64,000 nucleotides of DNA, taken from the NCBI RefSeq assembly GCF_025770765.1, contig NZ_JANZKY010000009.1, positions 62,001-126,000 of the forward strand, written 5' to 3'. Position numbers and translations under genes: made by a program. Positions within the stretch are counted from its first letter, which is position 1, and each line of letters opens with the position of its first letter. This document shows, piece by piece, positions 12,201 to 16,342 of the stretch. This DNA comes from Propionivibrio soli. GTDB lineage: Bacteria; Pseudomonadota; Gammaproteobacteria; Burkholderiales; Rhodocyclaceae. The notes beneath the pieces were generated by a model. The model saw nothing but the letters and a program-made list of their open reading frames with translations, was not told where the DNA came from and made no database searches.

Positions 12201-13973
12201 TTACATCGACTCAGGGCAACTGACGCCGAGAAGCGCCAAGCCGTTCCGGATTACCTGGCGCACCGCGGCCGCGAGAGCGACACGAGCGGTTCTTAAGGCC
12301 ACGTCGTCGACCAGCATGCGCTCCGCATTGTAATAACTGTGGAATTCGGCGGCCAAATCCTTGAGGTAGAAAGCCACCATGTGCGGTGCCAGATCTTCCG
12401 CCGCGGATTCGATGATTTCGGGAAACTCGCTGAGCTTGGCGGCAAGCGCGAGTTCGCGCGGGTTATCCAGACGGGAGAAATCGGCGTCGCGCAGCGCGGC
12501 TTCGGCTTCCGCGTCGCCTCCCCATTGTGCAAGCACTGAGCAGACGCGCGCATGGGCGTACTGAATGTAGTACACGGGGTTCTCGTTGGTCTGGCTTTTC
12601 GCCAGGTCGAGGTCGAAGTCGAGATGCTGGTCCGACTTGCGCAGCACGTAGAAGAAGCGGCAGGCGTCATTGCCCACTTCATCGCGCAACGTACGCAGCG
12701 TGACGAATTCGCCCGACCGCGTCGACATCGATGCTTTCTGCCCATTGCGATAGAGGACGGCGAACTGAACCAGCGCGACGTCGAGGACGTCCGGGTCGAG
12801 TTCGAGCGCCGCCAGCGCGCCCTTTACCCGCGGAATGTAACCATGGTGGTCGGCGCCCCAGATGTTGATGATGCGCTCGAAGCCGCGCTCGTATTTGTTC
12901 AGGTGGTAAGCGATGTCGGAGGCGAAGTAGGTGTACAGGCCGTTGTCGCGTTGAACGACGCGGTCCTTCTCGTCGCCGAAGGCGGTCGATTTGAACCACT
13001 TGGCGCCGTTCTGTTCGTACAGGTGGCCCGCTTTATCCAGGCGGTCGATGCAACGTTCGACGAGGCCGGTTTCGAACAACGACATTTCGGAGAACCAGAC
13101 ATCGTAGTGCACGCCGAACTCCTCGAGATCGCTGCGGCAGTCCTCGAGTTGCTCGTTGAGCACATGGTCGTGCACGTAGGCCCAATCGTCACCGAGGAGC
13201 TTCTTGGCGTTGGCAATCAGCGTGTCGAGATGGACTTCGCGCTGCGCCTTGGCCTCGTCGTCGCCGCGCGACGCGTCTGGCAGGCCCGGCGTTCCTTGCG
13301 TTACGGCGGAAGCGGCACGTACGAATTTGTTGCCGTGAGCGGCCCTCATCTGCTCGGCCATTGCAATGACGTAATCGCCCTGGTACGCATTGGGCGGGAA
13401 CTGAATGCGCTCTCCGTACGAGTCGAGATAGCGCAACCACGCGGAGACCGCGAGGATGTCCATCTGGCGCCCGGCGTCGTTTACGTAGTACTCGCGCGTC
13501 ACGTCCCAGCCGGCGTAAGCCATCAGGCTTGAGAGACTGGCGCCGTAAGCCGCGCCGCGCCCGTGACCGACATGCAGTGGCCCGGTCGGATTGGCGGAAA
13601 CGAATTCGATTTGCAGCTTCTTGTTGCCGCCTGCCTGCGAACGCCCGAAGACATCGCCGAGCGTCAGTACGCTGCGTACCACTTCGAGTTTGGCCGCTGG
13701 CAGGAGGTGAAAGTTGATAAACCCGGCGCCGGCGATTTCGGCTTTGGCGACGAACGGCGAGCTAGGAATTTCGCCGAGCAGCAGTTTTGCCAGATCGCGC
13801 GGGCTACGCTTCATCGCGCGCGCCAATTGCATCGCGAGATTGCAGGCGAAATCGCCGTGTGCGGCCTGTTTCGGACGTTCGATAACGATGGCCGTGTCAG
13901 CTTGATCGGGCGCCACGCTGAGCAGCGCCGTGTGCATCAGATCGGCGAGATGGGCTTTGATGTCGTGAGTCAT
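12201..13973 (-). CDS. argS: Arginyl-tRNA synthetase
   Basis: This 590-residue class I synthetase charges tRNA-Arg. The HIGH signature appears as HVGH in NPTGPLHVGHGRGAAYG, the KMSKS counterpart as KASMSTRSG, and the C-terminal DALR anticodon-binding domain starts around residue 470 (YIQYAHARV). The length fits bacterial ArgS. The ATG start is followed by an N-terminal domain typical of ArgS. It is the first gene of a minus-strand group with the SPOR and DsbA genes. Confidence 0.97.
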   Translation of the reverse strand: MTHDIKAHLADLMHTALLSVAPDQADTAIVIERPKQAAHGDFACNLAMQLARAMKRSPRDLAKLLLGEIPSSPFVAKAEIAGAGFINFHLLPAAKLEVVRSVLTLGDVFGRSQAGGNKKLQIEFVSANPTGPLHVGHGRGAAYGASLSSLMAYAGWDVTREYYVNDAGRQMDILAVSAWLRYLDSYGERIQFPPNAYQGDYVIAMAEQMRAAHGNKFVRAASAVTQGTPGLPDASRGDDEAKAQREVHLDTLIANAKKLLGDDWAYVHDHVLNEQLEDCRSDLEEFGVHYDVWFSEMSLFETGLVERCIDRLDKAGHLYEQNGAKWFKSTAFGDEKDRVVQRDNGLYTYFASDIAYHLNKYERGFERIINIWGADHHGYIPRVKGALAALELDPDVLDVALVQFAVLYRNGQKASMSTRSGEFVTLRTLRDEVGNDACRFFYVLRKSDQHLDFDLDLAKSQTNENPVYYIQYAHARVCSVLAQWGGDAEAEAALRDADFSRLDNPRELALAAKLSEFPEIIESAAEDLAPHMVAFYLKDLAAEFHSYYNAERMLVDDVALRTARVALAAAVRQVIRNGLALLGVSCPESM

Positions 13974-14116: not shown

Positions 14117-14719
14117 TCACTGCCCGAAATAACGACCGGGTCGGTGATTAATGGTGAGAACCATGTTGAGTGCGAGTACGCCAAGAATCGACAAGGCGAC
14201 CCGCAGCGGCGAAACGACGAACAAGGCGCCGCCAACGATCAGGGCATCGGCGATCATTTGCAGGGTCCCGGCACGCCAGCCGCGTCTTTTTTGCAGATAA
14301 AACGCCAGGACGCCAATACCGCCGAGGCTGGCCTGATGCCGGATCAGCATCAGCAAGCCGGCGCCGGCGAGCAACCCGCCGAGAACCGCGGCGAAAGTAG
14401 GGTTGATGCTCGCGATGTCGATCCAGTGCGGTAGCCATTCGCTGTAGAGCGAGAGGAGGGCTACCGCGCAGAACGTCTTGATCGTGAACGTTCTGCCCAT
14501 CGCCAGCAGGCCGAAGACGTAGAACGGAATGTTGATGACGAAATAGAGCAGGCCAAACGACATTCCGGTTGCATAGTGGGCAAGAAATGCGAGTCCCGGC
14601 GAACCGCCCGTGAGCAGTCCGGCTTGCTTGAAGAGAACGATGGCGAACGCGACAAGCAGCGTACCGGTGAGCAGCGCCTGAGCGTCTTCGAGCAGCGAAT
14701 GGGCGGGTTGGTGAGTCAT
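14117..14719 (-). CDS. YitT-family integral membrane protein
   Basis: This 200-residue protein has five to six hydrophobic segments (for example LLTGTLLVAFAIVLFKQAG, FGLLYFVINIPFYVFGLLA and the pair near residues 120-135 and 160-190). The segment TGGSPGLAFLAHY with NIPFY is typical of the YitT/DUF161 membrane family, whose function is unknown. The start at MTHQPAHS is chosen because upstream in-frame residues are Pro-rich and not membrane-like. It lies 134 bases downstream of argD on the same strand. Confidence 0.75.
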   Translation of the reverse strand: MTHQPAHSLLEDAQALLTGTLLVAFAIVLFKQAGLLTGGSPGLAFLAHYATGMSFGLLYFVINIPFYVFGLLAMGRTFTIKTFCAVALLSLYSEWLPHWIDIASINPTFAAVLGGLLAGAGLLMLIRHQASLGGIGVLAFYLQKRRGWRAGTLQMIADALIVGGALFVVSPLRVALSILGVLALNMVLTINHRPGRYFGQ

Positions 14720-14853
14720 CTTGGAATCGTACGGGAATGCGGGGCCGTGCGGCGGAGCCGGGAGCGTAGAGCACCCGGGCCGCTTCGGCAAGCGCCTTGT
14801 CGACCGAAGCGGCTATCCCACGAAAACACCACGCTAGCCTGTATGCACCGTCG

Positions 14854-16062
14854 TCAAGGAACATCCGCGGTCGCCTCTTCGGCGAGGATTTCGCTCAATA
14901 CGTCGTCGAGGATGCGTATTCCCTCATCGATTTCCTCGTGCGTTGAATTGAGGGCCGGCATGAAACGCAGACTGTGGGCGCGCGGGGCATTGAGCAGGAG
15001 GCCGGCTTTCCGGGCCCGGATGACGGCATCGTAGGCACACTCGCGGCCGAGTTCGAGCGCGAGGAGGAGTCCATTGCCGCGTACTTCGCCGAGCCCGAGC
15101 CCATTGGATAACGAGGTTAGACGTTCAGCGAAATAGAGACCGGTTTCGCGCACCCGTGGGAGAAACTCCGGCGCGAGGAGCGCCTGCATCACGGCGAGCC
15201 CGACGGCGCAGATGAGCGGATTGCCGCAAAAAGTACCCCCCTGGTCGCCCGGATCGAAACAGCTGATCTCGCGTCGCGCGAGAAGCGCCGACAATGGCGT
15301 CCCGCCGCCGATCCCCTTGCCGAGTGTCATGATGTCGGGCTCCACGCCAAACTGCTCGTAGGCGAACAAGGTCCCGGTACGCCCGCAGCCGGTTTGGACT
15401 TCATCAACGATGAGCAGAAGACGCTCTTGCTTGCACAGGGCAGCGATCTCCTGGACGAACGCGGGTGTTGCGGGAATCACGCCAGCTTCTCCCTGGACGG
15501 GTTCGAACATGACAGCCGCCGTCTCGGGACCGACGAGGGCGCGCACCGAATCGACATCGTTCAACAACGCCTTTGGAAAACCATCCACTTGGGGCGCAAA
15601 GAGGCGATCCCAGCCCGGTTTGCCGCTCGCCGACATCGTCGCCAGCGTACGGCCGTGGAAGGCGTTCTTCATGGTGATGATCTGATAAGCGCCATTTTTG
15701 TGTTTCTGCCCCCACCGGCGGGCGAGCTTGATAGCGCCCTCGTTGGCCTCGGCGCCAGAATTAGCGAAGAACACTTCGTCGAAGACGCTGTTCTTGGTGA
15801 GCAATGTCGCGAGTTCGAGCGCCGGACGGTTGTAGAACGCCGGGCTGGGATTGATCAACGTGTTTGCCTGCCGGTTGAGCGCTTCGGCGACGGCCGCTGG
15901 CGAGTGCCCGAGGCAATTGACTGCCCAGCCCTGGACCCAATCCAGATAACGTCGATCTTCGCCATCGAAAAGATAGCTTCCCTGACCACGCTCGAACACG
16001 AGTGATGGACGCGGGGTGATCGGCATGATCGGCGCATAACAACTGGAATGGTCTTGATTCAC
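14854..16062 (-). CDS. argD: Acetylornithine aminotransferase
   Basis: This 402-residue class III PLP aminotransferase carries out the fourth step of arginine synthesis, N-acetylornithine:2-oxoglutarate transamination. The PLP-binding lysine is in LGKGIGGG, the ring-stacking segment in [14 protein letters not shown], and the cofactor-binding aspartate in [12 protein letters not shown]. Other class III aminotransferases share these motifs, but the arginine-rich leader ORF upstream supports ArgD. The start is GTG, with a perfect AGGAGG six bases before it. An intrinsic terminator ends directly upstream of that ribosome-binding site, and the promoter and leader ORF lie 90-220 bases further upstream. 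Confidence 0.92.
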
Positions 16063-16080
16063 GAGTTACCTCCTGAAAAT

Positions 16081-16108
16081 AAAAAAGCCACGGAAGACCG
16101 TGGCTTTT
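16081..16108 (-). terminator. Intrinsic terminator in the argD leader (candidate attenuator)
   Basis: Read on the minus strand, AAAAGCCACGG pairs perfectly with CCGTGGCTTTT around a TCTT loop and runs straight into TTTTTT-ATTTT. The argD ribosome-binding site (AGGAGG, 16069-16074) begins within two bases of this tract. Because the only good promoter seen for argD lies upstream of it, transcripts must pass this terminator to reach argD. The sequence CGTGGC inside the leader ORF (16188-16193) is complementary to the first arm and could form an antiterminator. Confidence 0.85.
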
Positions 16109-16154
16109 GTCGAAGAACCCTAGGGATGGGGCGCTAGCTGATTGTCCCTGCTTT

Positions 16155-16250
16155 CTATCTGCCCGCACCGCTCGAACTTCGCGACGTGCCACGTGCCGCC
16201 GGAAATTGGCGTCGGTTCTCACGATGGCGTCGGATGAAATGAGCAGTCAT
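16155..16250 (-). CDS. Arginine-rich leader peptide of argD
   Basis: A 31-codon ORF starts with ATG at the predicted transcription start and ends at TAG, 46 bases before the attenuator hairpin. Eight codons encode arginine: positions 7, 8, 10, 13, 14, 20, 24 and 31, with two adjacent pairs (CGA-CGC twice) and one rare AGA. Clusters of codons for the end product are the hallmark of leader peptides that control amino-acid operons. The mRNA would be leaderless, which is unusual for this phylum but known for leader peptides elsewhere. I infer a regulatory rather than a structural role. Confidence 0.7.
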   Translation of the reverse strand: MTAHFIRRHRENRRQFPAARGTSRSSSGAGR

Positions 16251-16256
16251 GCACGG

Positions 16257-16285
16257 ATTGTCGGGCGAGGCGCGGTTTCGGTCAA
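16257..16285 (-). promoter_or_regulatory. Promoter of the argD leader
   Basis: On the minus strand TTGACC (16285-16280), a 17-base spacer and GACAAT (16262-16257) match sigma-70 consensus at five and four of six positions. The start point seven bases downstream coincides with the A of the leader ATG at 16250. Confidence 0.75.
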
Positions 16286-16300
16286 CGCCTAAATGCGGGG

Positions 16301-16342
16301 AACGAAGAAAAGCAGAGTGGACGACGGTGCGGTCCACTCTGC
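16301..16342 (-). terminator. Intrinsic terminator after dctM
   Basis: GCAGAGTGGAC (16312-16322) pairs perfectly with GTCCACTCTGC (16332-16342) around a nine-base loop, and on the minus strand the stem is followed by TTTTCTT. It lies ten bases after the dctM stop codon and ends the TRAP operon before the argD promoter. Confidence 0.85.

Follow-up and report, generated by a model that had tools for sequence, protein, structure and literature searches.

In the 64,000-nt stretch of Propionivibrio soli DNA considered here (the window), the minus strand carries argD, which encodes an acetylornithine transaminase, and directly before it a leader region. The elements are listed in the direction of transcription, with the basis of each assignment in parentheses where it applies.

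16312–16342, minus strand: 11-bp terminator-like hairpin closing the upstream transporter gene (sequence)
16280–16285, minus strand: −35 element TTGACC (sequence, promoter scan)
16257–16262, minus strand: −10 element GACAAT, 17-nt spacer from the −35 element (sequence, promoter scan)
16155–16250, minus strand: Arg-rich leader ORF, predicted to be leaderless, 31 codons followed by TAG, ATG at 16250 (sequence and conservation)
16227–16232, minus strand: first Arg pair, CGA CGC, codons 7–8 (sequence)
16209–16214, minus strand: second Arg pair, CGA CGC, codons 13–14, predicted control codons (folding model)
16187–16198, minus strand: predicted antiterminator segment within the ORF, core CGTGGC at 16193–16188 (duplex tests, folding model)
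16083–16108, minus strand: intrinsic terminator hairpin, perfect 11-bp stem and 4-nt loop (5' arm 16108–16098, 3' arm 16093–16083)
16076–16082, minus strand: T-rich tract 3' of the terminator stem (sequence)
16069–16074, minus strand: argD Shine-Dalgarno sequence AGGAGG (sequence)
14854–16062, minus strand: argD, acetylornithine transaminase, GTG start at 16062 (NF002985/PRK03715, 616.9 bits, cut-off 568)

The leader ORF encodes MTAHFIRRHRENRRQFPAARGTSRSSSGAGR and includes eight Arg codons, four of which form the two pairs. The core CGTGGC is complementary to GCCACG of the first terminator arm, and this arm can alternatively pair with the antiterminator segment. The original prediction had placed five elements before argD, i.e., a promoter, a start point on the ATG of the 31-codon ORF, the Arg codons within it, the intrinsic terminator and the argD ribosome-binding site with its GTG, and the sequence bears out each position, that of the start point as a prediction from promoter spacing. 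The transporter gene upstream is followed by a hairpin of its own, so that transcription of argD probably enters from the leader promoter. Because the leader ATG lies 6 nt past the −10 element, the transcript is predicted to begin on or next to this ATG.

The model that identifies the argD product, NF002985, is an equivalog, and against the wider TIGR00707 the protein scores 395.9 bits, i.e., under the cut-off of 410.05. By this assignment the product belongs to the arginine pathway, i.e., that of the amino acid thought to be sensed. A second argD, of another type, is found elsewhere in the genome (G000:C9:85377-86531), where it is adjoined by a putative argF (recognised by eye); the window argD represents a separate clade. 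Among 63 genomes of the order with an argD of the window type, 23 also give a strong match (E ≤ 1e-130) to the other type. In six genomes (G192, G348, G212, G243, G273 and G361) the window type is the sole match at E ≤ 1e-60 and is therefore probably the main ArgD; the leader is present in all six, those of G192 and G348 being of the Cupriavidus type. Judged by eye, there is no simple link between the presence of the leader and that of the second type of ArgD. Downstream of argD, also on the minus strand, are genes for a YitT-family membrane protein (14117–14791) and for arginyl-tRNA synthetase (argS, 12201–13973), the latter with its own TATAAT-like element just upstream.

Taken singly, the elements are unremarkable. 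One promoter-like site is found in the region (shuffle mean 0.5), as is one terminator-like site (shuffle mean 1.3). Nor does the fold of the complete leader stand out (z −1.36; 18 of 200 shuffles are equally or more stable). No Rfam 15 family matches the window over its gathering score, and the 31-residue leader peptide matches no Pfam family at E ≤ 0.001, the speF leader family DUF2618/PF10940 included, in a search that has low power at such a length. The combination of elements was found only at the argD leader when both strands of the entire window were scanned.

Conservation of the leader among argD orthologues

Orthologous loci were gathered from relatives, from a named genome collection (80 loci) and from 399 genomes of the order; 152 loci of the argD clade (NF002985/PRK03715) exceeded the bit-score cut, and 140 distinct upstream regions were counted. 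A strict rule was applied, i.e., a promoter, an ATG 4–10 nt after the −10 element, an ORF of 9–60 codons with at least three Arg codons, and a terminator. The control set comprised 570 upstream regions from the same loci, each preceding another long open frame; some of these frames are perhaps not genes. The strict rule selected 62 of the 140 orthologous regions, none of 2,800 dinucleotide shuffles and none of the 570 other upstream regions. When the Arg requirement was dropped, 63 of the 140 regions passed, i.e., at least three Arg codons are present in 62 of 63. The strict terminator rule alone was satisfied by 75 of 140 regions, compared to 6 of 2,800 shuffles. The relaxed and strict rules joined select 78 of 140 (the relaxed rule is satisfied by one of 1,400 shuffles), while 62 regions show no such element even under the relaxed rule.

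The near-random single scans and the ordinary fold of the leader are what an accidental alignment would give, given that Arg codons are frequent in GC-rich DNA. An explanation by chance is rendered extremely improbable by the outcome of the combined rule in orthologues, shuffles and other upstream regions, and by the fact that the conservation extends to divergent relatives. It is this conservation, and not any single element, that carries the weight of the evidence for a functional leader. An alignment of the regions upstream of argD had been proposed together with the original prediction; in the present comparison, both the Arg-rich ORF and the hairpin are kept in near and far relatives.

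The leader was found at 50 of the 80 loci of the named set and at 27 of 64 places of the order sample (two of the 64, L162 and L178, are under the bit-score cut and were left out). The carriers include Burkholderia, Paraburkholderia, Caballeronia, Cupriavidus, Ralstonia, Pandoraea, Herbaspirillum, Herminiimonas, Undibacterium, Collimonas, Propionivibrio and Bradyrhizobium, as well as metagenome-assembled genomes named Dechloromonas, Hylemonella and Marinobacterium. Upstream of argD, G005, marked as belonging to the window's genus, is identical to the Propionivibrio dicarboxylicus locus L036. None of the argD loci of Achromobacter, Bordetella, Pelistega and Polynucleobacter was selected by the rules. 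A sample of the phylum holds the window-type argD in 33 of 398 genomes, and in further groups, e.g., L233–L235, Arg-rich leaders are seen by eye near a TTGAC-like element, with a hairpin in L234 and L235. The leaders of Bradyrhizobium (L090–L113, 13 loci; also L207–L220) have 28–30 codons with up to 12 Arg, a conserved end of the RHVRRRR type and a GGCCGCACC hairpin, and their T tract is weaker than that of the betaproteobacterial leaders. The argD orthologues at L009, L010, L037, L059, L085 and L093 have no leader; some of these loci, e.g., L010 (G012) and L009 (G028), come from the GTDB genus or family to which the window belongs, which indicates that loss or replacement of the switch has occurred even in closely related genomes.

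On a quick tree built from the proteins of the 140 loci, leader presence must change at least 12 times, compared to 46 with shuffled labels; the starred branches of the argD tree force eight changes, and the leader is found on either side of the midpoint root. The changes are probably overcounted because the strict rule misses leaders that are visible by eye, i.e., L051, L119, L163 and L096, which were scored as having none. An old element with several losses (e.g., in Alcaligenaceae and Polynucleobacter) fits these data best; horizontal transfer of the leader is an alternative history that is not favoured over it.

The evidence concerns argD alone. A leader scan around the argC and argJ matches of 11 genomes and around other argD-like matches, 52 loci in all, revealed no true leader within the 1,500 bases on either side that were covered, a span that would miss a more distant operon start. 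The lone hit among these loci, L034, is devoid of an Arg pair and was judged to be unrelated. The argC model TIGR01850 exceeded its cut-off in only seven of the 11 genomes. The matches were weaker, about 160–169 bits, in the window's own genome (G000:C35), G005, G319 and G348, which suggests another type of ArgC there.

A predicted switch between antiterminator and terminator

When complementarity to the terminator 5' arm was sought within the ORF alone, it was significant at only five of the 62 loci, a weak outcome explained by the fact that the antiterminator of the Burkholderia group begins at about, or after, the stop codon. Once this result was known, the entire spacer was included in the search. 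In the wider search, the terminator 5' arm and loop paired with the spacer downstream of the Arg pair better than with shuffled spacers at 30 of 62 loci (p ≤ 0.05; p ≤ 0.01 at 12), while at 32 loci p exceeded 0.05; the duplex of the window itself is modestly better than its shuffles (p 0.035). For 19 divergent representatives, at most 75% identical to each other, own partners gave a mean of −18.72 kcal/mol, compared to −15.97 (sd 0.55) when partners were swapped, and none of 5,000 permutations was as low; against shuffles, nine of the 19 had p ≤ 0.05 (Fisher 3e-8). The antiterminator pairing proposed in the original prediction is thus supported at the level of the family, where terminators are on average matched better by their own leaders than by those of other species.

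Folding was also modelled for the RNA as it stands prior to synthesis of the terminator 3' arm. Sequestration of the 5' arm reached 0.86 when the ribosome was placed at the Arg pair, compared to 0.38 at the stop codon; without a ribosome, the value was 0.39. The value at the stall exceeded that at the stop codon by at least 0.2 at 52 of 62 loci and in 17 of 19 representatives, and the reverse was seen in none; a shuffled control reached this contrast in 114 of 380 cases (30%). The contrast is robust to footprints of 9–17 nt (45–54 of the 62 loci). It was absent at 10 of the 62 loci, e.g., at L080 (Cupriavidus), where the modelled arm remains 0.98 sequestered with the ribosome at the stop codon. 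For the window, sequestration is 0.84–0.87 at codons 6–14, codon 14 being the last Arg codon of the second pair, and drops to 0.02 at codon 19; it returns to 0.4–0.6 at codons 21–25 and 28–31, is 0.25 at the stop codon and 0.61 without a ribosome. A stall at codons 13–14 had been put forward as the control point, and the switch point of the model falls just after codon 14. An alignment of 19 Burkholderiaceae leaders yielded with RNAalifold a weak consensus (−2.8 kcal/mol), in which the antiterminator was not recovered. Between the antiterminator and the terminator, the Burkholderiaceae alignments A3 and A4 contain a hairpin of highly variable length, the arms of which, by eye, seem to co-vary, e.g., GCGCGTTG with CAACGC.

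The explanation that fits these data best is ribosome-mediated transcription attenuation of argD in response to arginine, sensed most likely via charging of Arg-tRNA, a reading to which we assign a probability of about 0.88. The original prediction is thereby supported in every part that can be tested computationally. According to this model, transcription would start on or next to the ATG of the leaderless 31-codon ORF, as suggested by the promoter spacing. With charged Arg-tRNA in short supply, the ribosome would stall at the CGA-CGC pairs (codons 7–8 and 13–14), the segment 16198–16187 would pair with the terminator 5' arm, and the polymerase would read through into argD. When arginine is plentiful, the ribosome would pass across 16198–16187 to the stop codon, such that the terminator could form and a terminated transcript of about 175 nt would be released.

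The same terminated transcript would result if the hairpin were simply a terminator and its product, either a small RNA or a small Arg-rich protein, acted in trans, with read-through that does not respond to arginine. There is a precedent in Sinorhizobium meliloti, where the trp leader RNA and peptide are described to act in trans in the available parts of PMC10117765 and PMC7298713. Such a product would leave unexplained the base pairing between the terminator arm and the leader, the presence of an Arg pair at the edge of the switch, and the finding that the strict scan hits argD and not argC or argJ of 11 genomes, and we consider it highly improbable as the sole function of the leader.

Predicted leaderless start and codon choice

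In a search of the 0–90 nt upstream, the distance from the end of the best promoter to the leader ATG is 6 or 7 nt at 51 of 62 loci and 9 nt at one; at the other 10, no promoter was found at the higher threshold. Because the loci were preselected by the 4–10 nt rule, the evidence resides in the narrow peak inside this range and in the lack of better promoters outside it. Shine-Dalgarno-like 4-mers precede the leader ATG at two of the 62 loci. Transcription is therefore predicted to begin at the leader AUG, and the leaderless position of the ORF, pointed out for the window in the original prediction, appears to be a conserved property.

The Arg codons of the runs follow a distinct pattern. In 55 distinct leader ORFs, these are CGC (82), CGA (76), CGT (38) and CGG (3), with no AGA or AGG. 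The rare codon CGA, which supplies 36 of 1,120 Arg codons in the corresponding 62 argD genes, is the first codon in 65 of 70 Arg runs, and among the 19 divergent representatives 17 first Arg pairs begin with it. The his leader of Salmonella offers a comparison: CGA, which shares its tRNAs with CGC and CGU, is read there at a lower rate than those two codons and increases de-attenuation (PMC4046918, available in part); a theory of codon choice in attenuators is found in PMC1183508, also available in part. By analogy, slow reading of CGA may influence stalling in the argD leader.

An Arg pair could also act at the level of the peptide, i.e., the RNA switch would be the same, but arrest of the nascent chain would sense free arginine or ornithine instead of a shortage of charged tRNA. 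The speF leader, which likewise carries an Arg pair, is such a case of nascent-peptide arrest, sensing ornithine. Ornithine and arginine both regulate this leader according to the available part of PMC6386406. As judged by eye, the argD leader peptides of different groups share little beyond the Arg run, and the features that are conserved, such as CGA in the first position, are found at the codon level, where a peptide-based arrest would not need them. Peptide arrest is thus improbable, and ribosome stalling for lack of charged Arg-tRNA remains the preferred explanation.

Relation to known leaders and significance

Ribosome-mediated attenuators are known for the his, trp, thr, leu, ilv and phe operons. 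Like these classical systems, the argD leader combines an ORF rich in codons of the pathway's amino acid, an intrinsic terminator, a predicted, mutually exclusive antiterminator and a gene of the same pathway, and the folding model shows the corresponding effect of ribosome position at most loci. Unlike these systems, it is predicted to sense arginine, to have a leaderless start and to use CGA-first runs, and it precedes a single gene, argD. As far as can be read from sequence, the mechanism is a known one; its amino-acid specificity would be new, and it is marked by a conserved, predicted leaderless start and a striking CGA-first codon rule.

Some of these properties have partial parallels in other systems. 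A leaderless leader ORF within an attenuator is found in trpL/rnTrpL of S. meliloti, the transcript of which starts with the AUG; this system differs in that it involves tryptophan and trpE, and the available text of PMC10117765 holds no arginine codon rule. In speF ORF34 of Salmonella, a pair of adjacent Arg codons early in a short ORF senses arginine through pausing of the ribosome, but the gene encodes ornithine decarboxylase and control involves Rho-dependent termination, RNA folding and RNase G; ORF34 has a Shine-Dalgarno sequence, unlike the argD leader, and the available portion of PMC6386406 describes no intrinsic terminator switch. The rbfL leader of Staphylococcus aureus is a short ORF with rare Arg codons that senses arginine limitation; here, a biofilm regulator is controlled at translation and lowered when arginine is scarce, and no terminator switch appears in the accessible part of PMC13009471. 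In Pseudomonas, carAB, which serves both arginine and pyrimidine synthesis, is likewise preceded by a leader peptide and a predicted attenuator, but attenuation there is linked to pyrimidines, with ArgR acting at the promoter; the carAB leader of P. syringae DC3000 is without a start codon (PMC4997734, available in part). The literature search, which covered few subscription papers and, of the comparative attenuator surveys of 2004–2010, only PMC2965389, yielded no report of an arginine attenuator for argD; the words "arginine" and "argD" are absent from the main text of PMC2965389, a broad survey of premature terminators.

With regard to the regulatory setting, the arginine repressor family PF01316 exceeded its cut-off in none of 120 genomes of the order (one match was below it), while as a positive control it was matched in nine of 14 control genomes. 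We regard as possible, though on balance doubtful, a wider reading in which the leaderless, CGA-first attenuator is a widespread arginine sensor of proteobacteria without ArgR. The leader would then replace the repressor at argD, slow CGA would tune the place and ease of stalling, and the released RNA or peptide may act in trans.

If the attenuator functions as proposed, the list of amino acids that control a biosynthetic gene through classical transcription attenuation would be extended to arginine, and the leader would help to explain the control of arginine synthesis in an order in which the PF01316 repressor family exceeded its cut-off in none of the 120 sampled genomes. The leader could also serve as a natural test case for leaderless initiation and CGA-first codon choice in attenuators, and it is present in tractable genera, e.g., Cupriavidus, Herbaspirillum, Paraburkholderia and Bradyrhizobium.
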